Shown here piece by piece: positions 1,434 through 23,194 of a DNA stretch of 40,599 bases (positions are counted from its first letter, which is position 1; every line of letters begins with the position of its first letter). Below the pieces are notes generated by a model. That model was given only the letters and a program-made list of their open reading frames with translations, ran no database searches and was not told where the DNA came from. The stretch lies in NCBI GenBank assembly GCA_020725425.1, contig DYFA01000001.1, positions 1 to 40,599 of the forward strand. Direction: 5' to 3'. Source of the DNA: Aneurinibacillus sp. (lineage in GTDB: Bacteria; Bacillota; UBA5301; DYFA01). The position numbers were made by a program, and so were the translations under genes.

Positions 1434-1844
1434 GTGGGAGCCACGGAATGGGCTCAGCCATCTTCTGGAGGGACGGAAGTCCAAGGAATCGGCGTCCAGG
1501 CCTATCCCTCGGGCTCGCCAACGGATCCCACCAGTCGATGGAGACGATGCAGCGGTTGCCAGGAGGTCTTCGCCGACTACATCTACGAGCGACCGGCGAC
1601 GCCGGGGTACACGACCTTCGAACCGCCCTACTTCATGCCGGTCTACGAGAACGGGCAGTGGCAGTACAAGAGTGTAGCCGGCCGGGTGCTCGACCGGAAG
1701 AAAGTCGAGGAGTTCAAGACCAAATTCTACAAGCTTGAGGGGTGGGATCCCGAGACGGACTGGCCCACCCGGGCTACGCTGGACTCCCTCGGTCTGGCGC
1801 ACGTCGCCGACGCGCTCGACCAAGCCGGAAAGCTGGGGAAGTGA
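1434..1844 (+). pseudogene. C-terminal remnant of aldehyde:ferredoxin oxidoreductase (AOR family)
   Basis: The frame from GTG 1434 encodes 136 residues, of which about the last 85 (from roughly 1600) read like the extreme C-terminus of the AOR/BamB family: TFEPPYFMPVYENGQW, then FKTKFYKLEGWDPETDW and WPTRATLDSLGLAHVADAL. Whole enzymes are around 600 residues, so the pterin- and cluster-binding parts are absent. The first 50 codons show no AOR similarity that I recognise. It shares a frame with the ferredoxin remnant, separated by TGA 1383, as expected if one large deletion fused the two genes. A terminator follows at 1964. It could still be expressed as a short peptide, but not as an active enzyme. 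Confidence 0.75.
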
Positions 1845-2735: not shown

Positions 2736-3947
2736 GTGAGGGAGAAACGCCGCGGGGCAACCCCCACCTTGTTGCGAGAACTCAACGGCCAGGCCATTGT
2801 CGACACTTTGCGTAAGAAGGGGCCGCTCTCCCGCGCCATGCTGGCCAAGACGCTCGGCCTTAGCCGCCCCACCGTGTCCAACCTGGTGGACCGGCTTATC
2901 GCCGACCGCTGGATCGAGGAGATCGGGGAGGGCCACTCCCCGGTCGGCCGGAAACCCATCCTGCTCAAGTTCAACCAGCGCGCCGGCTTCGTGCTGGGCG
3001 TCGATCTGGGAGGCACCAAGGTGCTCTGCGGCGTGGCCGATCTGGAGGGAAACCTTTTGTCCCGGGTCAAGCAGCCGAGCCGGGCGGCGGAGGGGACCGA
3101 GGTGGCGCTGCCCGCTTTGAAGGAAGCGATGAGGAAAGCGCTCTCCGAGGCGGGTGTACCCCCCGGGGCGCTCTTGGCCATCGGCCTCTGTTGTCCTGGG
3201 GTGCTGAATCCCGAGACGGGGACCTTCGCTCTGGCGCCCAACCTCAGTGGCTTCGATCGCCTCCCCCTGGGGAGCCTGCTCGAACAGGAGTTCGGCGTGC
3301 CCGTGCGGGTTGCAAACGACGTCAACGCCGCGGCGGTCGGCGAAAGCTGGCGCGGAGCCGCCCGCCACCGTCGCCATGTGGTGTTCGTTTCAGTCGGCAC
3401 CGGCCTCGGTGCAGGAGTGCTGATCAACGGGGAGGTCTTCGAGGGGGCCGCCGGGGCGGCCGGAGAGATCGGCTACATGGCCTTCGACCGGCGGGGGAGA
3501 GAAACCCGAGAACATGGCTTTTTGGAGACGGTGGCCTCGGGTTACGGGTTGGCCAGGGCGGCGGCCGCGGTGGCTTGGCCGCCACAGCCGCCGCGGGGAT
3601 TTGCGGAATGGCCGCCGCAGCCGCCGGTTACCCCGGAGCGCCTGATGGAACTGGCGAAACTCGGCCAGCCGGACGCGCTGGGGATCGTCGACCAGCTCAC
3701 CGAGTACCTGGCCCTGGGCCTCAACAACATCGTGAGCATACTCAATCCCGAAGTGATAGTCCTCGGGGGTAGCGTGATCTGCCGGAACCCCTGGTTGAAA
3801 GAGGCCATCGCAGAGAAGTTCCGGCAACTCACGCCCGTTGAGACGCCCATCGAGCTTTCCCAGCTTGGAGAGAACGCGGCGCTCCACGGAGCCACTAAGC
3901 AGGCGATTGACCAGGTCTTTGCCTCTTTGGGGAGGGCGACCTCATGA
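2736..3947 (+). CDS. ROK-family transcriptional repressor (NagC/XylR-like)
   Basis: This 403-residue regulator has an N-terminal winged helix (about 15-70: GPLSRAMLAKTLGLSRPTVS is the HTH core) followed by a ROK sugar-kinase-like domain. That domain carries the phosphate motif GVDLGGTKV, ANDVNAAAVGE and VGTGLGAGVLINGEVFEGA. The zinc motif of most ROK proteins (CxCGxxGCxE) is replaced by REHGFLE, so no cysteine metal site remains. A proline-rich repeated segment (WPPQPP twice) sits in the C-lobe. GTG 2736 is preferred, with AAGGAG 8 bases upstream, over TTG 2712. It opens the 11-gene cluster and overlaps nagB by 4 bases, suggesting a local, inducer-responsive repressor. Confidence 0.85.
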   Translation: MREKRRGATPTLLRELNGQAIVDTLRKKGPLSRAMLAKTLGLSRPTVSNLVDRLIADRWIEEIGEGHSPVGRKPILLKFNQRAGFVLGVDLGGTKVLCGVADLEGNLLSRVKQPSRAAEGTEVALPALKEAMRKALSEAGVPPGALLAIGLCCPGVLNPETGTFALAPNLSGFDRLPLGSLLEQEFGVPVRVANDVNAAAVGESWRGAARHRRHVVFVSVGTGLGAGVLINGEVFEGAAGAAGEIGYMAFDRRGRETREHGFLETVASGYGLARAAAAVAWPPQPPRGFAEWPPQPPVTPERLMELAKLGQPDALGIVDQLTEYLALGLNNIVSILNPEVIVLGGSVICRNPWLKEAIAEKFRQLTPVETPIELSQLGENAALHGATKQAIDQVFASLGRATS

Positions 3948-4693
3948 ACGTCATCGTCGAAGAGGATTACGCCGCCTTGAGCCAGCGGGCCGCCGGTATC
4001 GTGGCGAGCCAGGTGGCCCGGAAGCCGGGCTGCGTTTTGGGCTTGGCGACGGGGGTTACTTCCATCGGCTTGTATGAGGCTCTGGTCGAGCGTTACCGTG
4101 CGCAGGAGATCAGCTTCTCCCGGGTGACCACGTTCAACCTGGACGAGTACCTGGGCCTAGGGCCGGACGACCCCCGGAGTTTCGCCTACTTCATGCGGCG
4201 CCACTTTTTCTCCCGGGTGGACCTGGACCCGGCCCGCGTGCACCTGCTGAACGGTGTGGCGGCGGACCCCGAGGAAGAATGTGCCCGGTACGAGACGGCC
4301 ATCGCTGAGGCCGGGGGAATCGACCTGCAAGTTCTCGGAGTCGGCCAAAACGGGCACATCGGCTTCAACGAGCCAGGGACTCCTCCGGGCAGCCTCACCC
4401 GGGTGGTGCGGCTGTCACCGGAGACGGTGCGCCGGAACAGCCGGCTTGCCGGGCAGCCCGTTCCGGATCGGGCGCTCTCCATGGGCATCAAGACGATCAT
4501 GCAAGCCCGCCGGATACTGCTTCTGGCGAGCGGTCGGGACAAAGCGGCGGCGGTGGCTGAAGCCCTGCAAGGCGAAGTGACACCGGCGGTGCCCGCCTCC
4601 ATCCTGCAGTTGCATCCGGGGGTGACGGCGGTCCTGGACCGTGACGCGGCAGCGTTGCTGCGAAATTGGCGCGAATTATGTGAAGGATTATGA
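3944..4693 (+). CDS. nagB: Glucosamine-6-phosphate deaminase (NagB family)
   Basis: This 249-residue protein is the usual length for Bacillus-type NagB, which converts glucosamine-6-phosphate to fructose-6-phosphate and ammonia. Visible active-site blocks are LGLATGVTS (phosphate loop), FNLDEYLGL with Asp67 as the base, and LGVGQNGHIGFNEPGT with His138 and Glu143. Asn replaces the E. coli Asp just before the His, as in the B. subtilis enzyme. MGIKTIM and PASILQLH also fit. It starts inside the ROK stop (ATGA overlap), so translation is probably coupled. With a kinase and an aminotransferase downstream, its substrate here may be GlcN6P itself or a related amino-sugar phosphate made by this pathway. 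Confidence 0.88.
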   Translation: MNVIVEEDYAALSQRAAGIVASQVARKPGCVLGLATGVTSIGLYEALVERYRAQEISFSRVTTFNLDEYLGLGPDDPRSFAYFMRRHFFSRVDLDPARVHLLNGVAADPEEECARYETAIAEAGGIDLQVLGVGQNGHIGFNEPGTPPGSLTRVVRLSPETVRRNSRLAGQPVPDRALSMGIKTIMQARRILLLASGRDKAAAVAEALQGEVTPAVPASILQLHPGVTAVLDRDAAALLRNWRELCEGL

Positions 4694-4764
4694 GTGACTC
4701 CGGAGTAAATATCAATCAAATAGTTGCAAAAGGTGTCAGATTTGCGCGGCGGGGTGAGGCAGAA

Positions 4765-5553
4765 GTGTCCGGCTCCACTCAAGTTTCGCTCATCCCTGCG
4801 GAACGGCATCGGCGCATCGTGGAGTACATCGAGGCTAGGCGCAGCGCCAAGATCGAGGAGTTGGCGCAGGCGCTCGGCGCTTCTCCGGCGACCATCCGGC
4901 GCGACCTGGACCGCCTGGCCGCCCGGGGAGTGATCAGCCGGACCCATGGCGGAGCCGTACTCGCTACGGCGAGCACGGCGTTTGAGCAGCTCTACCCGGA
5001 AAAGAAGCGGATCCATGCCGCGGAAAAGCGCCGCATCGGAGTGGAGGCGGCCTCCCTGGTGGCCGACGGTGAGACGTTGATCCTCGATTCGGGCTCCACT
5101 ACGCTGGAAATCGCCCGGAACCTGACCCGGCGCAAGAACCTGACGATCATCACCAACGATCTCTTCATCGCCTGCGGGGTAGCCTTCGACCCCTCGACGG
5201 TGCTGATGGTCACCGGCGGAGTGCGGAGGGAAGGCTTCAACGTTCTCATCGGGCCGGTGGCGGAGGATTTTCTGCGCCAGGTGAGCGTGAACAAGACGTT
5301 TCTCTCTGCGGACGCCGTCGACCTCCAGCACGGCGTGACCAATGCCACCTTTGCCGAGGCGGCGCTCAAGCGGCTGATAATCGAGGCCGCCCAGGAAGTC
5401 GTGCTGGTGGCGGATCATTCAAAATTCGGGAAAGCAGCATTGGCCAAGGTATGTCCCGCCGAGCGACTCCACCGGGTTATCACCAGCACCGGGATTCCGG
5501 AGTCCCTGCTCAAGGGGTTCGAGAAGCTCGGTATCCCGGTGACAGTGGTCTGA
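4765..5553 (+). CDS. DeoR-family transcriptional regulator
   Basis: The 262-residue product has the DeoR layout: an N-terminal winged helix (ERHRRIVEYIEARRSAKIEE, then the recognition part SPATIRRDLDRLAARGVI and RTHGGAV), then the DeoRC sugar-phosphate sensor (DGETLILDSGSTTLEIA, TIITNDL, GGVRREGF, FLSADAVD, VLVADHSKFGK). GTG 4765 is preferred because GGGGTGAGG lies 5 bases upstream and the domain starts soon after. ATG 4690, overlapping the nagB stop, would add 25 residues encoded by AT-rich DNA that does not look like neighbouring coding sequence. Together with the ROK gene this gives the cluster two sugar-responsive regulators, perhaps one sensing the free substrate and one a phosphorylated intermediate. 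Confidence 0.85.
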   Translation: MSGSTQVSLIPAERHRRIVEYIEARRSAKIEELAQALGASPATIRRDLDRLAARGVISRTHGGAVLATASTAFEQLYPEKKRIHAAEKRRIGVEAASLVADGETLILDSGSTTLEIARNLTRRKNLTIITNDLFIACGVAFDPSTVLMVTGGVRREGFNVLIGPVAEDFLRQVSVNKTFLSADAVDLQHGVTNATFAEAALKRLIIEAAQEVVLVADHSKFGKAALAKVCPAERLHRVITSTGIPESLLKGFEKLGIPVTVV

Positions 5554-5589
5554 GCGACGCGGTCCAAACGAAACAAGGAGGGGATCCCT

Positions 5590-6390
5590 ATGTCAGGAGT
5601 GTTCACAGAATTGTTCGGAACCGAGAAGGCGATCATCGCAATGGCTCATTTCTTGCCGATGCCGGGATCCCCTCTCTACAACGAGGCCGGCGGGGTAGAG
5701 GCGATCCGGGAGTGGGTGCGGCGGGACGTCCACGCCCTGCAGGACGGTGGCGTCGATGCCATCATGTTCTGCAACGAGGGGGATCGACCGTACAACTTCA
5801 AGGCCAGCCCGGCCACCCTGGCCACCATGGCCGCCGTCATCGGCCAACTGCTGCCGGAAATCCGGGTGCCGTTCGGGGTGGACATCCTGTGGGACCCCCA
5901 GGCGGCGATCGCTCTGGCCAAGGCTACCGGGGCCCGGTTTGTGCGGGAGGTGTTCACCGGCACCTACGCCAGCGACATGGGCTTGTGGGACACGTCCTGC
6001 GGCGAGGCGCTGCGCTTTCGCCGGAACATCGGCGCCGGCGAGGTCCGGCTCTTCTTCAACATCAACGCCGAGTTCGCCGCCCCGATCGGCCAGCGCCCGT
6101 TGAGCCTGATCGCCAAGAGCGCGGTCTTTTCCTCTCTGGCCGACGTGGTTTGCGTCTCGGGGCCGATGACCGGGCAGTCGGTTGAAGTCTCCGACCTGTC
6201 CGTGATCAAGAACGCCCTCCCCGATACGCCCGTCGTGGCGAATACCGGGGTCAGGGCCGAAAACGTCCGGGAGATCTTGAAGATTGCCGACGGGGTCATC
6301 GTGGGTACCACCCTGAAACAGGACGGGAACACCTGGAACCCAGTGGATCCCGACCGGGTGCGCCGGTTTGTGGAGGCCGCCCGGGGCTGA
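5590..6390 (+). CDS. BtpA/SgcQ-family TIM-barrel protein
   Basis: This 266-residue soluble protein belongs to the BtpA family, named for a cyanobacterial photosystem I factor. SgcQ of an E. coli sugar gene cluster is a member. Family segments visible are IAMAHFLPMPGSPLYN near the N-terminus, GGVDAIMFCNEGDRP, PFGVDILWDP, FVREVFTGTYASDMGLWD and PVVANTGVRAENVREILKIADGVIVGT at the C-terminal phosphate-binding end of a barrel. A good site (AAGGAGG) precedes ATG 5590. Its reaction is not known; its place between a DeoR regulator and a sugar kinase argues for a lyase, isomerase or epimerase-like step on a phosphorylated intermediate. That last point is inference. Confidence 0.8.
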   Translation: MSGVFTELFGTEKAIIAMAHFLPMPGSPLYNEAGGVEAIREWVRRDVHALQDGGVDAIMFCNEGDRPYNFKASPATLATMAAVIGQLLPEIRVPFGVDILWDPQAAIALAKATGARFVREVFTGTYASDMGLWDTSCGEALRFRRNIGAGEVRLFFNINAEFAAPIGQRPLSLIAKSAVFSSLADVVCVSGPMTGQSVEVSDLSVIKNALPDTPVVANTGVRAENVREILKIADGVIVGTTLKQDGNTWNPVDPDRVRRFVEAARG

Positions 6391-6418
6391 AAGCTTGCGA
6401 AAGGTGACGCTGAGGCAC

Positions 6419-7966
6419 ATGGCTGAGGGCCGTACGCTGCTCATCGGAATCGACATCGGAACGACCGCCGTCAAGGGGACCCTCATCGACACCGAGGGAC
6501 ATCTCCTGGCCGAGGCGTCCCATGCCCACGACCTCTTCTCCAAGGAGATCGGCTGGGCGGAGGAAGATCCGGCGGACTGGTGGCAAGGGACTCTGTCGGT
6601 GCTCCGGGAATTGGCCGGCCGCCAGCGGGAGTTCGGCGGGACCGCGGCCGCCTTGTCCACCAGCGGGATGGTCCCCGCCCTGCTCTTGTTGGACGGCGCC
6701 GGAACCCCCCTTCGCCTCTCCATCCAGCAGAACGACGGGCGCTGCCACGCGGAGATCGCGGACCTGAAGGAACGGCTCGACGAGAAACAGTTCTTCACCC
6801 TGACGGGTGGCAGCCTCAACCAGCAAACCATCCCGCCGCGGACCCTCTGGCTGCGGCGGCATGAGCCCGAGACGTGGGGACGTCTCTCGTGGGTGCTCGG
6901 GTCCTACGATTATGTCACTTACCGCCTCACCGGCCGACTGACACTGGAACGGAACTGGGCACTCGAGAGCGGTATGTACGACGTGCGGAGGGAGGACTGG
7001 GTCGACCACCTCCTGGCAGCAGCCGGGTTGACGCGGGCCAACCTGCCGCCGGTCGTCCGGCCCGGCGAGGTTGTGGGGACGCTGGCGCAGCCCGTAGCGG
7101 AGGCCGTGGGCCTCTCCCCGCGGACCGTGGTGGCGGCGGGGTCGGCGGACCACGTGGCCTCCGCCTTTTCGGCCGGCGTGCGGGAGGAAGGCGACGTCCT
7201 CCTCAAATTCGGGGGGGCGGGCGACATCCTCATGGCGAGCGACACCCTCCGCTATGACCGGCGGCTGTTCCTCGACTACCACCTGATTCCCGGGAAGTAC
7301 TTGGTCAACGGATGCATGGCTGCCTCTGGCTCACTGGTGAAGTGGTTCGTCACCAACTTCACCGGCGGTGACGGGGAAGCCAAGGGCAATCCCTACGCCG
7401 CGCTGGACCGGTTGGCCAGCCAGCTTCCGCCCGGCGCGGACGGGCTCGTGATCCTGCCCTACTTCCTCGGCGAGAAGACGCCCATCATGGACGCGACCGC
7501 TCGCGGGTTGTTCTTCGGCCTCTCCTTGCACCACCGGGCGGAACACCTCTACCGGGCCATCCTGGAAGCGGTGGGCTACGGCTTCTATCACCACCTCGAG
7601 GTTATGGCGGAGATGGGGCTGACCGGGCGCCGCTACTTCATGAGCAACGGCGGCTCCCGGAGCGTCGTCTGGCGGCAGATCGTGACCGACATCGTGGGGG
7701 CGCCGGTCGAGTACATTGTCAAGCACCCGGGGTCCTCGCTGGGAGCGGCGTTCCTGGCCGGCATGGCGATCGGAGCCTTCCGCTCCTGGGACGAGGTGGG
7801 GCGCTACAGCGCCGAGCGGGAACGGGTTACCCCCGACCCCGCCAGGCACCGGGTCTACCGGGAGTATTTCAAGCTCTACAAGGAACTGTACGAGCGGCTG
7901 AAGCCAGCCTACGCCACGCTCAACGACCTCGTGACAGGAGGGCGGGCAGATGTCCATCCAGCTTGA
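6419..7966 (+). CDS. FGGY-family carbohydrate kinase (xylulokinase-like)
   Basis: The 515-residue product has both FGGY kinase halves: the N-terminal ATPase-fold motif LLIGIDIGTTAVKGTLID and the C-terminal block MSNGGSRSVVWRQIVTDIVG with KHPGSSLGAAFLAGMAIG. The catalytic-base region is GSADHVASAF, where the Asp is kept. The sugar-contact segment SIQQNDGRC differs from the WNDxR form of true xylulokinases, so the substrate may be another ketose or polyol. ATG 6419 with GAGG just upstream is chosen over longer frames. Its 3' end overlaps the aminotransferase gene by 17 bases. It probably phosphorylates the substrate or its oxidised ketose before the downstream steps. Confidence 0.85.
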   Translation: MAEGRTLLIGIDIGTTAVKGTLIDTEGHLLAEASHAHDLFSKEIGWAEEDPADWWQGTLSVLRELAGRQREFGGTAAALSTSGMVPALLLLDGAGTPLRLSIQQNDGRCHAEIADLKERLDEKQFFTLTGGSLNQQTIPPRTLWLRRHEPETWGRLSWVLGSYDYVTYRLTGRLTLERNWALESGMYDVRREDWVDHLLAAAGLTRANLPPVVRPGEVVGTLAQPVAEAVGLSPRTVVAAGSADHVASAFSAGVREEGDVLLKFGGAGDILMASDTLRYDRRLFLDYHLIPGKYLVNGCMAASGSLVKWFVTNFTGGDGEAKGNPYAALDRLASQLPPGADGLVILPYFLGEKTPIMDATARGLFFGLSLHHRAEHLYRAILEAVGYGFYHHLEVMAEMGLTGRRYFMSNGGSRSVVWRQIVTDIVGAPVEYIVKHPGSSLGAAFLAGMAIGAFRSWDEVGRYSAERERVTPDPARHRVYREYFKLYKELYERLKPAYATLNDLVTGGRADVHPA

Positions 7967-9257
7967 ACGGCGGCACTACCTCCAGTCCTACCGCTCCCAG
8001 CCGGCGGTCATGGCGGGGGGGAAGGGCAATTACCTCCGGGATGAGCAGGGCCGCCAGTACCTGGACTTTTCCGCCCAGTTCAGCGCCTGCGCGGTTGGGC
8101 ATGCCCACCCGGAGATGATCCGGGCGCTCGAGGACGAACTCCGGCGGGGCGTCGGTATCACCTCGCAGTTCGTCACGGAGGTCCGGGCGGCCCTCGCGGC
8201 GCGGCTCGTGTCCCTGATGCCCGCTCCCCTCGACGCCTGCCTCTTCGGGGTCACCGGCTCCGACGCTAACGAGTACGCCCTGAAGGTCGCCAAGATGGTC
8301 CGGGGCGGGGGCGACATCATCGGCTTTTACCGGGCCTACCACGGAGCGACCGCCGGTTCGGCCGCCGCCACCGGCAAGACCGAGACGATCCAGCGGCACC
8401 AGGGGATCCGCCAGCTCCTGCCGGCCGGCTTCGCTCACGCCAGCCCCCCGTACTGTTACCGATGCGACTTCGGCCAGACCTATCCCGGATGCGGACTGCT
8501 CTGCCTGGAATACCTGAAGACCCAGATTCTCCACCGCGGCCCGGATAACATCGCTGGGATCATCGTGGAGCCGATCATCGCCGGTGGCGGGGTCATCGTG
8601 CCTCCTCCGGGCTATCTCACCGAACTCGTCCGGTTCTGCCAGGCCCATGGGATCGTCGTCATCTTCGACGAGGTCGTCACCGGCTTCGGCCGTACCGGAC
8701 GCATGTTCGCCTTCGAGCACGAAGGGGTGGTGCCCGACGTGGTCGTCCTCGGTAAGGCTTTAACCAGCGGTTACATCCCCGGCGCGGCGGTGGTGGTCCG
8801 CCACGAGTACAAGGGCATCGTGGACCGGTTCCACCTGCATGGCCACACCCATTCCGGCTACCCACTCATGTGCCGGGCGGCCCTCGCGACGCTCGACCTG
8901 CTTTCCCGGGACCGTTTGGTGGAACGAGGAGCGGCGGTCGGGGAGCGGCTCGGGGCGGGCCTGCGGGAACTCCAGAAACACCACGCCTCCGTCGGCGATG
9001 TGCGCGGACTGGGCCTGCTCTGGGGCCTGGAGATCGTGCGCCCCGGAACCAAGGAACCCGATCTTCCGGGGGCCGACCGGCTCGGCGGGCTTCTCCTGGA
9101 GGAGGGCCTGGTCGTAGAGGTGGAGGCCCAACCGGAGCTGGAGAGCTCGGTCATCGTGATGCATCCGCCCCTGACCATTACGGACGCGGACGCCGACGCG
9201 GCTCTTTCCATGTTGGACAAGGCACTGGCCAGGTTTGAGCGTAGTGCGGCTGATTGA
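7950..9257 (+). CDS. Class III PLP-dependent aminotransferase
   Basis: This 435-residue fold-type I enzyme has the omega-aminotransferase signature: FGVTGSDANEYALK for phosphate binding, FYRAYHGAT, IVEPIIAGGGVIVPPPGYL, IFDEVVTGFGRTG with Asp240, and VVLGKALTSGYIPGAA with Lys269 as the Schiff-base lysine. A Cys cluster, C169-x2-C172-x8-C181-x3-C185 (YCYRCDFGQTYPGC), resembles that of the dialkylglycine decarboxylase / AGXT2-like branch. ATG 7950 has AGGAGGG upstream and lies inside the end of the kinase gene. It could remove or add an amino group on a sugar or polyol aldehyde or ketone. A decarboxylating variant is possible. The amine partner is unknown. Confidence 0.88.
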   Translation: MSIQLERRHYLQSYRSQPAVMAGGKGNYLRDEQGRQYLDFSAQFSACAVGHAHPEMIRALEDELRRGVGITSQFVTEVRAALAARLVSLMPAPLDACLFGVTGSDANEYALKVAKMVRGGGDIIGFYRAYHGATAGSAAATGKTETIQRHQGIRQLLPAGFAHASPPYCYRCDFGQTYPGCGLLCLEYLKTQILHRGPDNIAGIIVEPIIAGGGVIVPPPGYLTELVRFCQAHGIVVIFDEVVTGFGRTGRMFAFEHEGVVPDVVVLGKALTSGYIPGAAVVVRHEYKGIVDRFHLHGHTHSGYPLMCRAALATLDLLSRDRLVERGAAVGERLGAGLRELQKHHASVGDVRGLGLLWGLEIVRPGTKEPDLPGADRLGGLLLEEGLVVEVEAQPELESSVIVMHPPLTITDADADAALSMLDKALARFERSAAD

Positions 9258-9349
9258 GAAGGGGAGGTGAAAGCTGGCGTATTCAGCCCGGAGGGAAGGT
9301 TGTCTCAGGAGGATTTGGAGGTCGCGAATCCAGAACAGGAGGGTTGAAA

Positions 9350-10741
9350 GTGAAAATGCGTCGGTTTCTTTCGGTGGCCACCGTGGCGCTTACCTTGTCA
9401 CTCCTGGTAGCGAACGGGGTTGCAGCCGCACCGCTGCCGCCGAGCAAAGCAAAGATCAATTGGCGCCAGTTTGAAGGCCAGTCCATCACGGTCCTCATGG
9501 TTGCTCACCCGTGGCAGAAGGCGGTCGAACCCCTTATCCCGCAGTTTGAGAAGTTGACTGGAATCAAGGTCAACGTGGTGGTCCAGGCGGAAGACCTCTT
9601 CTGGGACCGCTCGCAATTGGGGATGAGTTCTCCCAACCCGCCGTTTGATGTCACCTACCTGGCCATGGGCATCAACGGCCTGACGGCGTACAAGAACGGC
9701 TGGCTCGAGCCCCTGGACGAGTACTTGAACAACCCCAAACTCACCGACAAGAACTGGTTCGAGTTCGACGATTTCTTCCCGGCAGACGTGGCGGGCTTCC
9801 GCATGCCCAAACCGGATCAGGGCAAGGTCTACGGCATCCCCATGGCTGGCGAGGTCTACTTGAACTTCTACCGCAAGGATCTCTTCAAGCAGCACGGCAT
9901 CGACGTCAGGAAGCTCAAGACCATGGACGACTGGCTCAAAGCCGTCAAGTCCCTGAATCTCGATACCAACAAGGACGGCAAGACCGACATCTACGGCGCC
10001 ACCATCCGCGGCGCCAACGCCGGCATCATCGACGAACTCAACGCCATGGTGGCCGACTACTGGGGCGACGCCCCGTATCAGACCGACCGGTTCGTGTACT
10101 TCGACGAGAACTGGCGCCCGCGCTTCACCGACCCGCGCATCGTGGCGGCCTTCGCTACCTGGGGCGAACTCATGAAAAACTCCGCTCCGGGCGTCACCTC
10201 CTTCGACTGGTATGAATGCACCACCCAGTTCGCACAGGGCCGCGCCGCCACTTACTGGGCGGACGCCAGCCTGTTCGCCAGCATCTTCGAGGACCCGAAG
10301 CAGTCCGCGGTGGTGGGCAAGGTCGGGTATGCGCCGCTGCCGGCCACCAAGAACGGCCATAACACGGCCCTCTTCACCTGGGGCCTCGCCATTCCGGCCC
10401 GCTCGAAGCACAAGGGACCGGCTTGGCTCTTCATCCAGTGGGCTACCAGCCAGGCGATTGATCTCGAAGTGAGCCAGAAGACTTTCGCCTCGCCGCGCAA
10501 GTCCACCTGGGATAACCCAACGTTCAAGAAGGCCCTGCCGGAAGGTCTGGGCGAGGCGGTCGCGGCTTCCTTGGCCGTGGCTCGCCCCTCCATCATGTAC
10601 GTGGATGCCGCCGATAAGGTGATCTTGCGGATGCTGGACGCCCTGCACGCCATCGCCCTTGGCACCCCGGCCGAGAAGGCCATGCAGAAGCTGCAGGATG
10701 AGGCGACCCAGATCGTCAAAGAGGCCGGCCTGTACAAGTAG
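9350..10741 (+). CDS. Extracellular sugar-binding protein of an ABC importer (family 1 SBP)
   Basis: This 463-residue protein has a signal peptide (KMRR, then LSVATVALTLSLLVANGVAA) ending in an A-x-A type site and no lipobox cysteine. The mature part looks like a CUT1 maltodextrin-type binding protein: GQSITVLMVAHPWQ, PQFEKLTGIKVNVV, NGWLEPLDEYL, KVYGIPMAGEVYLNFYRKDL, DTNKDGKTDIYG, FAQGRAATYWADASLF and TPAEKAMQKLQDEATQIVKE. GTG 9350 follows AGGAGGG with 6 bases spacing. The missing lipid anchor is unusual for a monoderm Bacillota and would be natural for a protein free in a periplasm or bound to a wall. It feeds the two permeases downstream. Confidence 0.88.
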   Translation: MKMRRFLSVATVALTLSLLVANGVAAAPLPPSKAKINWRQFEGQSITVLMVAHPWQKAVEPLIPQFEKLTGIKVNVVVQAEDLFWDRSQLGMSSPNPPFDVTYLAMGINGLTAYKNGWLEPLDEYLNNPKLTDKNWFEFDDFFPADVAGFRMPKPDQGKVYGIPMAGEVYLNFYRKDLFKQHGIDVRKLKTMDDWLKAVKSLNLDTNKDGKTDIYGATIRGANAGIIDELNAMVADYWGDAPYQTDRFVYFDENWRPRFTDPRIVAAFATWGELMKNSAPGVTSFDWYECTTQFAQGRAATYWADASLFASIFEDPKQSAVVGKVGYAPLPATKNGHNTALFTWGLAIPARSKHKGPAWLFIQWATSQAIDLEVSQKTFASPRKSTWDNPTFKKALPEGLGEAVAASLAVARPSIMYVDAADKVILRMLDALHAIALGTPAEKAMQKLQDEATQIVKEAGLYK

Positions 10742-10752
10742 CCGCTGGCAAA

Positions 10753-10778
10753 GGGGGCGGGGCTCCGCCTCCGCCCCC
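10753..10778 (+). terminator. Intercistronic GC-rich hairpin behind the binding-protein gene
   Basis: GGGGGCGG pairs perfectly with CCGCCCCC, and inside it GGC pairs with GCC around TCC, with one bulged T. No T-run follows, so it is more likely a 3'-end stabiliser or partial terminator that raises binding-protein mRNA above the permease mRNA, as in many ABC operons, than a full stop. Confidence 0.6.
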
Positions 10779-10821
10779 GCCTGCCCCCTCGTGCATGGAT
10801 TGAGAATGGAGAGTGGTAAAG

Positions 10822-11850
10822 ATGACCCGCCAACACGAAAACGTGAAGCGCATCGAGTACGGGGAAGGCATCCTCCGGGATGCGCTGGCCGGAGTCTCAT
10901 CCTACGTCGTGGTCTCCATGGAGGTGCCCTGGTCGCTCGCCCGCCCCCAGGTTGCCAAGGAGCCGGAACAGGTCTTTCTCATCCCCAATGTTCAGGAAAC
11001 GACGGTCGAGAAAGTCATCGCTGAAGCACCCGAAACCGAATGGGTCGTGGGCATCGGCGGGGGCCAGGCGATCGACGTGGCCAAGTACCTCGCTTTCCGT
11101 CGGGGGGCCAAACTCATCAACGTTCCCACCATCGTTTCCACCAACGCCTACGTCACCCCGCTGTCCGGCATCCGGCGGGGAGACCGGGTTGACTACATCG
11201 GCGGGATCGCCCCCGAGCTGGTCGTCGTGGATTATTCCCTCATCCGGACCGCCCCGAAGTGCCTGAATGTGGCCGGAGCCGGCGACGTTCTCTCCATGCA
11301 CACCGCCAGCTTCGACTGGGAGATCGCCGCGCGGGCCGGGGAGAAAGCCAAGGGACGGACCTACGAGTTCAATCCGGAGGCCGTCAAGACCGCTCGCGCC
11401 ATCCTGGCCGAGTTCATCGCCGGGGCGGAGGAGATCGGGAAGGTCACGAACGAGGGCATCAAGCTGATTGTCGACTCCTACCTCCGCATCAACGACCTCT
11501 GCCTCCCGCTCGGCCACTTCCGGCCGGAGGAGGGTTCCGAGCACTTCTTCGCCTACAACGCGGAGCATGTCGCCAAGCACGAGTTCCTGCACGGGGCCAT
11601 CGTGGGGCTCGGTATCGTCCTCATGAGCGCGGTGCAGGGCAACGACCCAAAGGGTATCCGCAAGGTGCTTGACACCATAGGGCTTGACTACTCTCCGGCG
11701 GCCTCGCAACTCACCCGAGAGCAGGTCATCACGAGCCTGGCGACGGCCAAGGAGTACGCTCTCTCGAGGAACCTCTGGTACAGCGTGATCGACGAGGCCA
11801 ACCTGACCGAGGCCTCCGCCACGGCCCTGGTGAACGACCTCGGACTATAA
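10822..11850 (+). CDS. Glycerol-1-phosphate dehydrogenase-like (Fe-ADH_2 family) oxidoreductase
   Basis: The 342-residue product belongs to the dehydroquinate-synthase-like metal dehydrogenases, closest in pattern to sn-glycerol-1-phosphate dehydrogenase (AraM/EgsA). The NAD-binding part carries VVGIGGGQAIDVAKYLAF and INVPTIVSTNAYVTPLSG; metal-ligand regions are GAGDVLSMHTASFDWE and EHVAKHEFLHGAIVGLG. Dehydrogenases of this group use Zn, Ni or Fe. ATG 10822 is preferred to GTG 10813, which sits too close to the GGAG site. In archaea and some Bacillota the family makes glycerol-1-phosphate. Placed inside a sugar operon, it is more likely to oxidise or reduce a polyol phosphate of this pathway. 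Confidence 0.82.
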   Translation: MTRQHENVKRIEYGEGILRDALAGVSSYVVVSMEVPWSLARPQVAKEPEQVFLIPNVQETTVEKVIAEAPETEWVVGIGGGQAIDVAKYLAFRRGAKLINVPTIVSTNAYVTPLSGIRRGDRVDYIGGIAPELVVVDYSLIRTAPKCLNVAGAGDVLSMHTASFDWEIAARAGEKAKGRTYEFNPEAVKTARAILAEFIAGAEEIGKVTNEGIKLIVDSYLRINDLCLPLGHFRPEEGSEHFFAYNAEHVAKHEFLHGAIVGLGIVLMSAVQGNDPKGIRKVLDTIGLDYSPAASQLTREQVITSLATAKEYALSRNLWYSVIDEANLTEASATALVNDLGL

Positions 11851-11863
11851 GGAGGGCTGGCGC

Positions 11864-12745
11864 GTGCCGCGACAGAGAGCCATCACCGCTTACGGCTACC
11901 TTCTGCCATCCATCGCCGTCCTGGGCGCCGTCGTTCTGTATCCGGTGCTGTTCGGCCTGTACGCCAGCTTTCATGATTGGAACTGGGCGCTGGGCCAGGC
12001 TGAAGGATGGAAGTGGACGGGCCTCGGAAACTACCTGACGTTGCTGCGGGACGGCTACTTCTGGCATTCCGTGGGGGTGACGCTCTACTTTACCGTGGTC
12101 GCGGTGGCAGTCGAATTCATCCTCGGGTTCGCCATCGCCCTGCTCCTGGCGCAGGACATCAAGGGCGCCTGGTTCTTCCGGGCGGCGACCGTCTTCCCGC
12201 TCATGGTCTCGGACATCGTGGCGGCCCTCCTGTGGGGGATGATCCTCAACCCCTCGCTCGGGATTCTCAACTACGGCTTAAGCGTGTTGCATCTTCCCGG
12301 GCCGGACTGGGTAGGCAACCCCCAGCTCGTGGTACCCACCCTGGCCGCCGTGGACGCCTGGTGGCAGACCGGGAACATCGTCCTCATCCTCTTGGCGGGG
12401 CTGAGCGGCATCCCGAAGGATCGCTTCGAGATGGCGTCAATCGACGGCGCCCACGGTTGGCGGATGCTGTGGCACATCACCATCCCGAGCCTTATGCCGT
12501 TCATCCTGGTGGCCCTCGTCTTTCGGACCATCGACTGCCTGCGGGTCTTCGCCCTCGCCTGGGGGATCACCTCGGGCGGGCCGCTCCGGGCGTCCGAGTT
12601 TAGCCAGTTGTTCATCTACACGCAAGGGTTCGGGCGCCTGTTCAACATGGGCTATGCCGCGGCCGCTTCGGTCGTGTTCGCCCTCATCGTCGGGGTGGTC
12701 GTGATCTTCTATGTCGGCCCCATGCAAAGGAGACTGAGCGCATGA
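11864..12745 (+). CDS. Sugar ABC transporter permease (MalF/UgpA type)
   Basis: This 293-residue inner-membrane protein has about six hydrophobic helices. It carries the EAA loop that contacts the ATPase, seen as FEMASIDGAHGWRMLWHITI followed by PSLMP, the CUT1 pattern. TM1 is YGYLLPSIAVLGAVVLYPVLF, typical of MalF-like subunits without the long periplasmic loop. GTG 11864 follows GGAGGG. Its stop overlaps the next permease start by 4 bases, so the two subunits are probably made in equal amounts. It forms the transmembrane channel with the following gene product. Confidence 0.9.
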   Translation: MPRQRAITAYGYLLPSIAVLGAVVLYPVLFGLYASFHDWNWALGQAEGWKWTGLGNYLTLLRDGYFWHSVGVTLYFTVVAVAVEFILGFAIALLLAQDIKGAWFFRAATVFPLMVSDIVAALLWGMILNPSLGILNYGLSVLHLPGPDWVGNPQLVVPTLAAVDAWWQTGNIVLILLAGLSGIPKDRFEMASIDGAHGWRMLWHITIPSLMPFILVALVFRTIDCLRVFALAWGITSGGPLRASEFSQLFIYTQGFGRLFNMGYAAAASVVFALIVGVVVIFYVGPMQRRLSA

Positions 12746-13578
12746 GCCGGGTCGGCCTGAAGAAACGCCTGACAAACCTGCTGCCATACGTCGCCCTGAC
12801 CGCGGTCGCCCTGGTCTTCCTGGCGCCTCTGGTCTGGACTATCCTGACTTCTCTCAAGAGCCAGCTCGACGCCCTGGCGATCCCGCCGGTGTGGAAGTTC
12901 GCGCCTATCTGGCGCAACTACCTGGATGCCTGGCAGTCCCGGGATTTCGCCATGTCCTTCTTCAACACGACCTACGTGGCGCTGTTCTCCATCGGGATAA
13001 GCCTGCTGTTGGGCATCCCCGCCGGCTACGCCCTGGCCCGCTTCCGGCTGAGCGGGAACAACACCGTCGAGGTGGGCCTGCTAGTGGTGCGCATGTTGCC
13101 CGAGATGCTGTTCATCATCCCGATGTACGCCCTGTATCGCAAGTTCGGGCTATACGACACACCGCTCGGCCTGGTTCTGGCGTTTCAGATCTTCAACCTG
13201 CCCTACACCATCTGGCTGCTCCGGCAGTTCATCAGCGAGGTTCCGCTCGAGATCGAGGAGGCCGCCCGCATCGATGGCTGCAGCACCAACCAGATCCTCT
13301 GGCGGGTCATCCTGCCCCTCATCGCCCCGGGGGTGGTCGCCACAGCCATCCTGGCCTTCATCGTGGTCTGGACGAACCTGCTCATCCCCCTGGCGCTGAC
13401 CTACACCGACTCGCCGCTCATCGCCACCACGATCGCCAACTTCCGGGGATATGGAGGTTTCAACTGGCCGGTGATGGCCGCCGGTTCGGTGATCGCCATC
13501 ATTCCTCAGTTCATCTTCTTCCTCTTCGCTCAGAAATACATCATCCGCGGCCTGACTCTAGGCGCGGTGAAGGAGTGA
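12742..13578 (+). CDS. Sugar ABC transporter permease (MalG/UgpE type)
   Basis: This second channel subunit is 278 residues with about six helices. The first is YVALTAVALVFLAPLVWTIL followed by TSLKS, a hallmark of MalG-type permeases. The EAA loop reads EIEEAARIDGCSTNQILWRV followed by ILPLIAPG. The gene starts with ATGA overlapping the previous stop. No ATPase gene lies in the cluster, so the pair probably uses a shared multi-sugar ATPase (MsmX-like) encoded elsewhere, as is common for CUT1 importers in Bacillota. Confidence 0.9.
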   Translation: MSRVGLKKRLTNLLPYVALTAVALVFLAPLVWTILTSLKSQLDALAIPPVWKFAPIWRNYLDAWQSRDFAMSFFNTTYVALFSIGISLLLGIPAGYALARFRLSGNNTVEVGLLVVRMLPEMLFIIPMYALYRKFGLYDTPLGLVLAFQIFNLPYTIWLLRQFISEVPLEIEEAARIDGCSTNQILWRVILPLIAPGVVATAILAFIVVWTNLLIPLALTYTDSPLIATTIANFRGYGGFNWPVMAAGSVIAIIPQFIFFLFAQKYIIRGLTLGAVKE

Positions 13579-13583
13579 CGACG

Positions 13584-14612
13584 ATGAAAGCAGCTGTGTT
13601 GCACGGACCGAGGGAGTTGCGCGTCGAGGAGCGCCCCCGGCCGGCCCCGGGCAAAGGCGAGGTCCTGCTCCGGGTCGGAGCGACCGGAGTCTGCGGATCC
13701 GACCTGCACGTGGTGAACGGGGTCAGCCCGGAGCCCATGGCTCCCAACCCGGTCCTGGGACATGAGACGATGGGGACCGTGGTGGCGGTGGGCGAAGGTG
13801 TCCAGGCCTTCCAGCCCGGGCAGCGGGTGGGTGTCGAACCCCTCATCGGTTGCGGGCAGTGCGATTTCTGCCGCAGCGGCAACTACCACCTCTGCACCAG
13901 ACTTGAGCTGATCGGCATGGAGCGGCTGGGTGGCTTCGCCGAGTACCTCGTGGCCCCGCAGGACAAGGTGTTCACCCTGCCGGATTCGGTGAGCGACGAG
14001 GCGGCGGCCATCCTGGACTGCGTAGCGGTAGCGGTGCACGTCCTCAACCGGGCCCCCCTCGAGCTGGGCGACACGGTGGTGGTCTTGGGCGGCGGGACCA
14101 TCGGTCTCATCATCGCCCAGTTGGCCAAAGCCCGGGGCGCGGCGCGCGTGGTCGTCACCGACCTCTCCGAGAGGCGGCTGGCCCTCGCCCGGGAGGTGGG
14201 CGCCGACGAGGCGGTCAACGCCGGCAGCCAGCCCTTCGAGGAACTGAAAGCCCGGTTGGGTGGCCGGGTCGACGTGGTCATCGAGGCGGTGGGCGGAAAG
14301 GCTCCGACCATCAACCAAGCGCTGCAGCTCGTCCGGCCCCGGGGAACGATTGTGTTCATGGGCATCTTCATCGAGCCGGTACCGGTCGACCTGTGGCAGG
14401 CCCTCCGGTATGAGGTGACCATCCGGGCAGCGTGGAGCTACGCTTACCACGACATGAAGCGGGAGTTTGCCACGGCGCTGGAGCTGGCGGCCGGCGGCCA
14501 GTTGAAGCTCGATCCGCTGGTCACGCACCGCTTTACCCTAGACCGGGTGGCGGAGGCCTTCGCCCAGGCGGGACGGGCGTCAGAAGCGGTCAAGGTCGTC
14601 GTCCGGCCCTAA
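13584..14612 (+). CDS. Zinc-dependent alcohol/polyol dehydrogenase (MDR family)
   Basis: This 342-residue medium-chain dehydrogenase resembles sorbitol and threonine dehydrogenases. Catalytic zinc ligands are seen in GATGVCGSDLH (Cys) and GHETMGTV (His-Glu). The structural zinc site is in CGQCDFCRSGNYHLC (four Cys). The Rossmann motif is VVVLGGGTIGLIIAQLAK, followed by the Asp of VVVTDLSERR, which suggests NAD rather than NADP. ATG 13584 follows AAGGAG, five bases after the permease stop. As the last gene of the cluster it probably oxidises the imported polyol or sugar to a ketone, which would then be open to amination or phosphorylation. Confidence 0.88.
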   Translation: MKAAVLHGPRELRVEERPRPAPGKGEVLLRVGATGVCGSDLHVVNGVSPEPMAPNPVLGHETMGTVVAVGEGVQAFQPGQRVGVEPLIGCGQCDFCRSGNYHLCTRLELIGMERLGGFAEYLVAPQDKVFTLPDSVSDEAAAILDCVAVAVHVLNRAPLELGDTVVVLGGGTIGLIIAQLAKARGAARVVVTDLSERRLALAREVGADEAVNAGSQPFEELKARLGGRVDVVIEAVGGKAPTINQALQLVRPRGTIVFMGIFIEPVPVDLWQALRYEVTIRAAWSYAYHDMKREFATALELAAGGQLKLDPLVTHRFTLDRVAEAFAQAGRASEAVKVVVRP

Positions 14613-14689: not shown

Positions 14690-15238
14690 TTGACCGGGAC
14701 CGTGGCCAAGCCCCTTCTGCAGGGCGGCGTCACCCCCGCCAAGTTCTTGGCACTGGCCCTCACCTTCGGGGGCAACGTCCTGATGCTGGGGGCCGGCCGT
14801 CCCAGGGTGACGCCCGACCCTTTGGGCCTCGGAGCAGGGCTCCTATCGGCCGCCTCGGCGGCTTTCTACACCCTTTACAGCAAGCGGGCGCTCGCCAGGT
14901 ACCATCCACAGACCGTGCTCTTCTGGGCCCTCGTCTTTGCGGCGCTCCCCTGGGTGTTTCTCCACCCCCCGACACTTTTTCTGAGCCGCACCTGGCACCC
15001 TTTCGAACCGCCGCTCTTCTTCCTCTTCGCCGTGTTCGCCACGGTCATCCCCGACAGCCTCTACTTCCGCGGCCTGCGGGACCTCACCTCGAGCCAGGCG
15101 GGGCTCATCTCGACCCTTGAGCCGGTGGTGGCGGCCTTCACGGCCTACCTCGCCCTGGGTGAGCAGCTTACGCTGGCCGAGGCCGGCGGCGCCCTGCTGG
15201 TACTCGCCGGCATCGCCCTCCTGCGGCGGGATTCGTAG
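14690..15238 (+). pseudogene. 5'-truncated EamA/DMT-family transporter
   Basis: The frame encodes the end of the first EamA repeat (TPAKFLALALTFGGNVLMLG) and the whole second repeat (GLGAGLLSAASAAFYTLYSK, LRDLTSSQAGLISTLEPVVA, TLAEAGGALLVLAGIALL). Intact DMT transporters have about 290-300 residues and ten helices; here the first four helices are missing and the first available start, TTG 14690, falls mid-domain. The truncation coincides with the end of the sugar cluster, as if the cluster had been inserted or a deletion had occurred there. A five-helix half protein is not known to work for this subfamily, so I call it a remnant. Confidence 0.65.
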
Positions 15239-22398: not shown

Positions 22399-22992
22399 CT
22401 ATCGGACTCCTTCCCCGAAGAGATCCTTGCGGCCGGCCAGCCACCACATGACGGCGGCCGTGATCAGGGTCTCCGGCACCATGTACCCTCCGTTGTACAA
22501 GGCGGAATAAACCCAGACATTCTGGCCTTTCGGGGCGTACTGGGCGAAGAAGACCACGCCGGAGACCAAGTGTGCCACAAAGCGCAGCGCCGACCCGGCG
22601 ATGACCCCGGTCAGGACTGCGGGACGGCTGACCCGGACCTGGCCCCCGGCGCCTCGCCTGGCGAACCAGCCGGCGACCCCCAGCACGCCGAAGGCTACCG
22701 GGTAGTCCAGCGCGAACTGCACCGGTGTGACCACGTACGGTTTGAGCAGCAGGTTGAAGAAGCCGAAGAGCGCTCCCGCCAGGACGCCGGTGCCGGCGCC
22801 CCGGCGCAGGGCCACGAAGAACAGCGGCAGCATCTCCAAGGAGACGGACCCGCCCTGGGGGGCCTCAAAGACTTTGATGAAATGGAGCACGGCAGCCAGG
22901 GCCACCGCCAGTCCGACCTCGGTGATGGTCTGTGCGGGGATCCGCGGTCGGGCGGGGGCCGGGGCCGCCCGGTCGCCTGTCTTACTGTTCAT
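22399..22992 (-). CDS. thiT: ThiT, thiamine-specific S component of an ECF transporter
   Basis: The 197-residue membrane protein has about six helices and the ThiT pattern: AVALAAVLHFIKVFEAPQGG, SVSLEMLPLFFVALRRGAGT, PVQFALDYPVAFGVLGVAGW and VYSALYNGGYMVPETLITAA, the last two carrying the Tyr/Asn/Glu pocket residues of the family. It binds thiamine outside the membrane and needs a shared ECF module (EcfT, EcfA, EcfA') encoded elsewhere. The start ATG at 22992 follows GAGGAGGAG. A TPP riboswitch and terminator lie in its leader, so high TPP should stop transcription. It is the only intact gene of the operon; the ABC transporter behind it has decayed. Confidence 0.88.
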   Translation of the reverse strand: MNSKTGDRAAPAPARPRIPAQTITEVGLAVALAAVLHFIKVFEAPQGGSVSLEMLPLFFVALRRGAGTGVLAGALFGFFNLLLKPYVVTPVQFALDYPVAFGVLGVAGWFARRGAGGQVRVSRPAVLTGVIAGSALRFVAHLVSGVVFFAQYAPKGQNVWVYSALYNGGYMVPETLITAAVMWWLAGRKDLFGEGVR

Positions 22993-23032: not shown

Positions 23033-23073
23033 CCGCAAGAGAAAGCGCCGCAACCCTCCCCGGGTTGCGGCGC
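23033..23073 (-). terminator. Riboswitch-linked terminator (attenuator) of thiT
   Basis: GCGCCGCAACCC pairs perfectly with GGGTTGCGGCGC around a 5-base loop (23045-23073), followed on the minus strand by TTTCTCTT. It lies between the TPP aptamer and thiT, the standard place for a transcription-off switch. Confidence 0.85.
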
Positions 23074-23081
23074 ATATGGTC

Positions 23082-23175
23082 TCGTTCCATCCCTACGCTG
23101 GCATTACCCAGATCAGGTTGACGGGTCGGCAGCAGATGCGGCTGCCCTCTCAGCCGGCTAAACCAGCTCCCCGGG
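23082..23175 (-). ncRNA. TPP (THI-box) riboswitch aptamer
   Basis: The minus strand carries the conserved elements in order: GGGGAGCTGG at the 5' stem, GGCTGAGAGGGCAGC, a variable P3 arm with GCATCTGC, ACCCGTCAACCTGATCTGGG, and TAATGCCAGCGTAGGGA at the 3' side. These are the CTGAGA and CCTGATCTGG...TAATGCCAGCGTAGGGA signatures that bind the pyrimidine and pyrophosphate ends of TPP. It is followed by a terminator and thiT. Confidence 0.93.
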
Positions 23176-23194
23176 AATATGTGGTTGCAGGACC

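Follow-up and report, generated by a model that had tools for sequence, protein, structure and literature searches.

A candidate amino-polyol catabolic cluster in Aneurinibacillus sp. that would join a transaminative entry block to a DeoR-BtpA-FGGY core

BtpA/SgcQ proteins are widespread, and in the sgc sugar operon of Escherichia coli one of them, SgcQ, is accompanied by a DeoR regulator. The same two families meet in a cluster of eleven genes from Aneurinibacillus sp., located at positions 2736–14612 of a contig (C15) of 40,599 nucleotides, the whole of which was analysed and is called the window here. Unlike this cluster, the sgc operon uses import by a phosphotransferase system and is not known to have an FGGY kinase or an aminotransferase. 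The draft genome (G000) is 2.38 Mb in size and 97% complete, and its class is represented by seven genomes only. Other described systems resemble different parts of the cluster. The nagAB system of N-acetylglucosamine catabolism has NagB and a ROK regulator in common with it. Azasugar clusters are an established case of a class III aminotransferase combined with an aminopolyol dehydrogenase, and bacterial clusters add a phosphatase (PMC8382821). In the Bilophila taurine module Tpa-SarD, an aminotransferase has been demonstrated to produce an aldehyde that an iron-type dehydrogenase then reduces (PMC6386719). A further group of clusters, found in Thermus thermophilus plasmids, Rhizobium, Labrenzia, Shinella and Salipiger and named here after their short-chain dehydrogenase/reductase (SDR), has orthologous BtpA and FGGY proteins, a DeoR regulator whose likeness is weak outside the phylum, and CUT1 import. 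In the literature searched (open-access papers only), no paper was found that gives these SDR-type clusters a substrate, and no described pathway with the gene set of the window was found either, in agreement with the original prediction.

Our reading of the cluster, held tentatively and with slightly less than an even chance of being right, is that a transaminative entry module has been joined to a DeoR-BtpA-FGGY polyol core for the use of an imported amino polyol. The cluster probably imports a nitrogen-bearing sugar alcohol, strips the nitrogen, and catabolises the rest by a kinase-BtpA route that appears to be used by several unrelated bacteria for ordinary sugar alcohols. The earlier suggestion that the cluster serves the import and catabolism of a polyol or sugar with an amino group is supported by the evidence. 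Each of the eleven genes is an open frame on the + strand and belongs to the family first named for it, as judged from Pfam and NCBIfam profiles (Table 1). Overlaps of 4–17 bp had been noticed at four junctions; these measure 4, 4, 17, and 4 bp, and a further 4-bp overlap is probable, provided that the zinc-dependent medium-chain dehydrogenase (MDR) starts at GTG 13575. The widest intergenic gap, 98 bp, lies between the genes for the class III aminotransferase (AT3) and the solute-binding protein (SBP). Terminator-like sites across the cluster region number eight, with 7.9 expected by chance.

The core consists of adjacent DeoR, BtpA, and FGGY genes that are orthologous to those of the relatives. 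Identities between the window and its relatives are 52–66% for BtpA, 43–64% for FGGY, and, for DeoR, 54–59% within the class and about 28–42% outside it. The higher DeoR values refer to the genomes G003, G005, and G006, in each of which the gene adjoins BtpA. The window BtpA, present in a single copy in its genome, is 64–66% identical to the proteins of G003, G005, G006, and G082, 59% to that of Thermus, and 52–55% to those of rhizobiales, and the FGGY kinase is 64% identical to that of G005 and 61% to that of G082; its nearest structure is an unassigned FGGY kinase (PDB 3ifr, 440 bits). The order DeoR-BtpA-FGGY was found in G005, which belongs to the same class, in two Thermus thermophilus plasmids, and in rhizobial and Salipiger plasmids. 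G082, of the same phylum, carries BtpA-FGGY, and in Labrenzia and Shinella the core genes lie within one cluster and are not all adjacent. The core is accompanied by an SDR and a CUT1 transporter in all of the G005, G082, Thermus, rhizobial, Salipiger, Labrenzia, and Shinella clusters, and in some of them by a phosphatase of the HAD or inositol type. Across phyla, the SDRs of these clusters share 50–79% identity. Among G005, G082, Thermus, Labrenzia, and Shinella, the SDRs are 53–79% and the binding proteins 48–72% identical, the Rhizobium binding protein being the exception. Because both proteins are conserved across phyla (again with the exception of the Rhizobium binding protein), the SDR-type system is coherent and probably polyol-oxidising.

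The window differs from these clusters in having, instead of the SDR and its transporter, an aminotransferase, an iron-type dehydrogenase (Fe-ADH), an MDR, and a CUT1 transporter unrelated to theirs, and in the addition of NagB and ROK; none of the eleven genes encodes an SDR. Its SBP lies outside the clade of SDR-type binding proteins, with 26–32% identity to them (30% to those of G005 and G082, within the phylum) and a separate clade at 100/100 support. The corresponding identities of the permeases are 33–38% (A) and 31–38% (B), with 33–38% to G005 and G082. The relative with a matching entry block is G003, of the same class, in which a 5.5-kb contig carries AT3, SBP, Fe-ADH, permease A, and permease B in the order seen in the window, with identities of 58, 63, 55, 62, and 62%, respectively. 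These two genomes stand apart from all others in the SBP tree, and in the AT3 tree the window groups with G003 only (both at 100/100). A second G003 contig terminates in DeoR-BtpA (59 and 65% identical to the window), and its orientation would place FGGY and AT3 next, beyond the contig end. The G003 genome lacks an SDR-type binding protein (best match 30%). The gene order is thus conserved beyond chance in two parts, with AT3-SBP-FeADH-PermA-PermB retained at 55–63% in a genome of the class and DeoR-BtpA or DeoR-BtpA-FGGY in several phyla.

BtpA and FGGY are 61–66% identical within the phylum and SBP only 30%, so the importer and the entry enzymes vary together and the kinase and BtpA stay constant. 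The BtpA of G003 moreover shares 82–84% identity with that of the SDR-type genome G005 and with that of G006, a genome in which the contig opens with the tail of an SDR-type binding protein; the entry block therefore differs within one family in which BtpA has hardly altered. From these comparisons, the simplest reading would be that the importer and the entry enzymes have been swapped as one block on a constant kinase-BtpA core. Elsewhere, the cluster falls into three parts, each of which is met without the others in some genomes. This separability is what would be expected of a composite locus, in which a nag remnant (ROK-NagB), a polyol unit (DeoR-BtpA-FGGY), and an independent AT3-FeADH amine importer act on unrelated compounds. 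Against such a composite stand the 17-bp overlap of FGGY and AT3, the operon-like spacing throughout, and the situation in G003, where both blocks, DeoR-BtpA and AT3, lie at the ends of contigs in a compatible order and no SDR-type SBP is present; we regard it as unlikely.

For the joined module, the CUT1 importer would take up a deoxy-amino alditol, perhaps of four to six carbons, and AT3 would transfer the amino group of this compound to a 2-oxo acid. From a terminal amine the product would be an aldehyde, which Fe-ADH could reduce to a polyol and the MDR could then oxidise to a ketose, the role of the SDR in the relatives; an amine at C2 would give the ketose directly. The FGGY kinase would phosphorylate the ketose and BtpA would turn the ketose phosphate toward central metabolism, with DeoR and, here, ROK as putative regulators. 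This succession from amino polyol through aldehyde, polyol, ketose, and ketose phosphate to BtpA fits the resemblances of AT3, Fe-ADH, and MDR, and the best explanation of the shared core may be that the ketose leaving the entry block is the one that the SDR-type relatives make from a polyol. Two resemblances count in favour of a polyol substrate: the structure nearest to SBP is a sorbitol-binding protein (PDB 4rya, 3.5e-26), and that nearest to the MDR is a ketose reductase (1e3j), followed by sorbitol and threonine dehydrogenases.

AT3 has a lysine of the catalytic type (Lys269 in LGKALTSG), and the solved structure nearest to it is dialkylglycine decarboxylase. At the position aligned to the carboxylate-binding Arg406 of that enzyme it has a residue other than arginine, which is suggestive of an uncharged substrate and was not used as evidence. 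Relatives of AT3 at 36–37% identity (G187 and G350) lie in another neighbourhood, with branched-chain ABC transporter genes, and were set aside. The azasugar three-gene cluster (GabT1-phosphatase-GutB1) also combines a class III aminotransferase that has PYCxRC with a zinc MDR dehydrogenase. In contrast to it, the cluster at 2736–14612 has no phosphatase and no SGNxFRxxxFPN consensus, and has an importer and a kinase. An azasugar biosynthesis cluster was rejected, with PYCYRC alone present. As a diagnostic motif, PYCYRC was rejected as well; it is also carried by two further class III enzymes that the genome encodes and by enzymes whose neighbourhoods are unrelated. The cluster may work in reverse on compounds of a similar kind. 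A specific form of this idea is the catabolism of azasugars or azasugar-derived amino polyols, in which the MDR would reduce or open a cyclic imine and AT3 would make a ketose. The pairing of a PYCYRC-bearing aminotransferase with a zinc dehydrogenase recalls the azasugar clusters, and the importer and kinase indicate uptake, but compared with a named cluster carried by a plasmid of Paenibacillus polymyxa, AT3 is just 33% identical to GabT1 and the MDR 30% to GutB1, no nearer than other class III enzymes, and this explanation seems improbable.

The Fe-ADH has the predicted fold of a glycerol-1-phosphate dehydrogenase (G1PDH) and the Asp/His/His residues expected to bind metal. Its expected ligands Asp158, His244, and His260 are invariant across seven sequences, and its AF2 model (pLDDT 85) gives as best PDB folds the G1PDH structures 5fb3 and 4rgq and also glycerol dehydrogenases; the score against the G1PDH equivalog NF002022 is 159 bits, under the cut-off of 413. 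A sugar cyclase resembling dehydroquinate (DHQ) synthase is not favoured, since the predicted fold matches G1PDH and glycerol dehydrogenases far better than it matches DHQ synthase. The subfamily is met near amine chemistry in other phyla. Its relatives in Bacteroidota (L002, L003, L004, and L006) form a conserved trio with an amino-acid-type (APC) permease and a GNAT acetyltransferase. One in an Aerophobetes contig lies near CUT1 genes and a PIG-L deacetylase, and those of two further genomes (L063 and L064) lie beside threonine-synthase-like, RidA, PIG-L, and ceramidase-like genes (identified by eye). Neither Fe-ADH nor BtpA has relatives in viral contigs. Given these neighbours and the Tpa-SarD precedent, the step order first proposed, with the MDR before the aminotransferase, is possible and not favoured. 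The combination of AT3 and Fe-ADH, which recalls Tpa-SarD (PMC6386719), together with a glycyl-radical-like gene (by eye) near another class III aminotransferase of the genome, could also indicate that these two enzymes process an amine bearing a sulfonate or phosphonate, in a taurine-like manner. The substrate class of the window differs, however, its Fe-ADH is of the G1PDH type, and the CUT1 sugar-type importer, the sorbitol-like SBP, the sugar kinase, and the lack of a lyase in the cluster leave very little room for this proposal.

NagB has the motifs GQNGHIGFNEP and FNLDEYLGL and a best PDB match to 2bkv (224 bits), and is the only above-cut-off match in this genome. The ROK protein scores 138 bits against the NagC model, far under the cut-off of 650. 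In contrast to nagAB systems, NagA has no match in the genome of the window, and NagB is not conserved with the other genes of the cluster. The loss is reciprocal: in G003 a NagA gene directly precedes DeoR-BtpA, and the genome, which is 99% complete, has no NagB. Elsewhere, nagA and nagB are adjacent in G001 and G002. In G003 no ROK gene was seen beside DeoR-BtpA, and in the SDR-type clusters seen NagA and NagB are both missing beside the core. Because G003 lacks NagB and this genome lacks NagA, drainage through NagB to fructose-6-phosphate is not a conserved step, and the single linear pathway with that ending, which the original prediction had proposed, finds no support in the only relative with the AT3 block or in the SDR-type clusters seen.

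A pathway of amino-sugar type could nevertheless be envisaged, in which the import ends as glucosamine-6-phosphate, NagB converts it to fructose-6-phosphate, and the steps of BtpA and FGGY precede that of NagB. It would account for the 4-bp overlap of NagB with DeoR and for the sole copy of NagB, and it can call on the NagA gene of G003, by which both genomes have a nag gene at this place. It also agrees with the nearest plasmid binding protein to the window SBP (37%, Ensifer), which lies among ROK and SIS genes. The divided occurrence of NagA and NagB, and their absence beside the core of the SDR-type clusters seen, speak against it, as does the proposed removal of the amino group by AT3, which would make NagB redundant for the same nitrogen; we think it has a low probability. 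ROK-NagB is a local part of the cluster, in which NagB may act on a glucosamine moiety or on a sugar supplied together with the main substrate; in the scheme for amino polyols it would be a local addition salvaging glucosamine-6-phosphate from a co-supplied amino sugar. An amino-sugar habitat is favoured by the nag theme of both genomes with the AT3 block and by the ROK-SIS neighbourhood of the Ensifer protein.

Several points weigh against an amino-polyol route through the joined module. The full AT3 block is present in two genomes only, and in G003 it and DeoR-BtpA are on two contigs, the linkage of which is deduced from contig ends. The search of G003 gave no close ortholog of FGGY, so that this gene lies in a contig gap or is absent, and no MDR is seen there, where the contig ends. 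The sole compared enzyme of proven amino-polyol chemistry shares only 33% identity with AT3. The two regulators and NagB are not predicted by the model. No reaction is known for BtpA, with none assigned to BtpA/SgcQ proteins in the literature searched, and the single-sequence structure model of BtpA (pLDDT 45) was not used for fold search.

A wider proposal is that the window holds an undescribed transaminative amino-polyol route into a BtpA-dependent ketose-phosphate pathway that is common to several phyla and has an exchangeable importer and entry block. We consider this conceivable, with appreciably less than an even chance. If true, it would define a bacterial route for amino polyol use. 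The two cluster types that share the kinase and BtpA would offer a direct way to the shared ketose, and two unrelated binding proteins with one common intermediate would make the BtpA reaction testable.

Table 1. Features of the cluster, with the profile matches on which each assignment is based.
Feature	Position	Strand	Evidence
ROK-family regulator (N-terminal winged helix and ROK domain, NagC-like)	2736..3947	+	Pfam ROK 186 bits; MarR/HTH matches
NagB-type glucosamine-6-phosphate deaminase	3944..4693	+	TIGR00502 264.3 bits (cut-off 236.9)
DeoR-family regulator (core)	4690..5553	+	Pfam DeoRC/HTH_DeoR
BtpA/SgcQ protein (core)	5590..6390	+	TIGR00259 281 bits (cut-off 153)
FGGY kinase, xylulokinase-like (core)	~6419..7966	+	Pfam FGGY_N/C; TIGR01312 335 bits (below cut-off 380)
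Class III pyridoxal phosphate aminotransferase, AT3 (entry block)	7950..9257	+	Pfam Aminotran_3 296 bits
CUT1 solute-binding protein, SBP (entry block)	9356..10741	+	Pfam SBP_bac_1
GC-rich hairpin, possible 3' stabiliser of the SBP gene	10754..10786	+	GGGGGCGG...CCGCCCCC, read directly
Fe-ADH, G1PDH type (entry block)	10813..11850	+	Pfam Fe-ADH_2
CUT1 permease A (entry block)	11864..12745	+	Pfam BPD_transp_1
CUT1 permease B (entry block)	12742..13578	+	Pfam BPD_transp_1
Zinc MDR dehydrogenase, polyol/threonine dehydrogenase type	13575..14612	+	Pfam ADH_N/ADH_zinc_N

G003 (locus L026) also has a hairpin after the SBP gene, GGGCAGGAGG...CCTCCTGCCC, read directly. A ROK-operator-like sequence, TTAGTAAACAAAACTACC, occurs once in the window, at 2685–2702, which is too little for any claim. 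Distant BtpA proteins (32–34%; L048 and L049) adjoin a ribokinase-type kinase on Agrobacterium vitis and Pantoea plasmids, with phosphotriesterase-like and amidohydrolase genes as neighbours and TenA in Pantoea only; a sugar kinase keeps BtpA company in most contexts seen.

Two other loci of the same genome contain aminotransferase genes, several of the calls being made by eye. One (L075, G000:C44:70500-90400) has class III aminotransferases, an FGGY kinase, CUT1 transporters, and genes resembling those for 2-keto-3-deoxy-6-phosphogluconate aldolase, glycyl-radical enzymes, and aldehyde ferredoxin oxidoreductase. The other (L074, G000:C24:64000-83900) has two aminotransferases with an FGGY match close by. 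Amine-linked sugar catabolism may, from these loci, be a theme of the organism.

Right behind the cluster, at 14690–15238 (+), a 182-aa EamA transporter fragment with one EamA domain is probably a truncated gene. Ahead of it, at 1434–1844 (+), lies a C-terminal piece of an aldehyde ferredoxin oxidoreductase (model positions 652–700 only), the rest of the gene being absent. Further along the window, a thiamine pyrophosphate riboswitch at 23072–23183 (−, 73 bits) precedes the gene for the ThiT thiamine ECF transporter at 22399–22992 (−), which is an ordinary arrangement.

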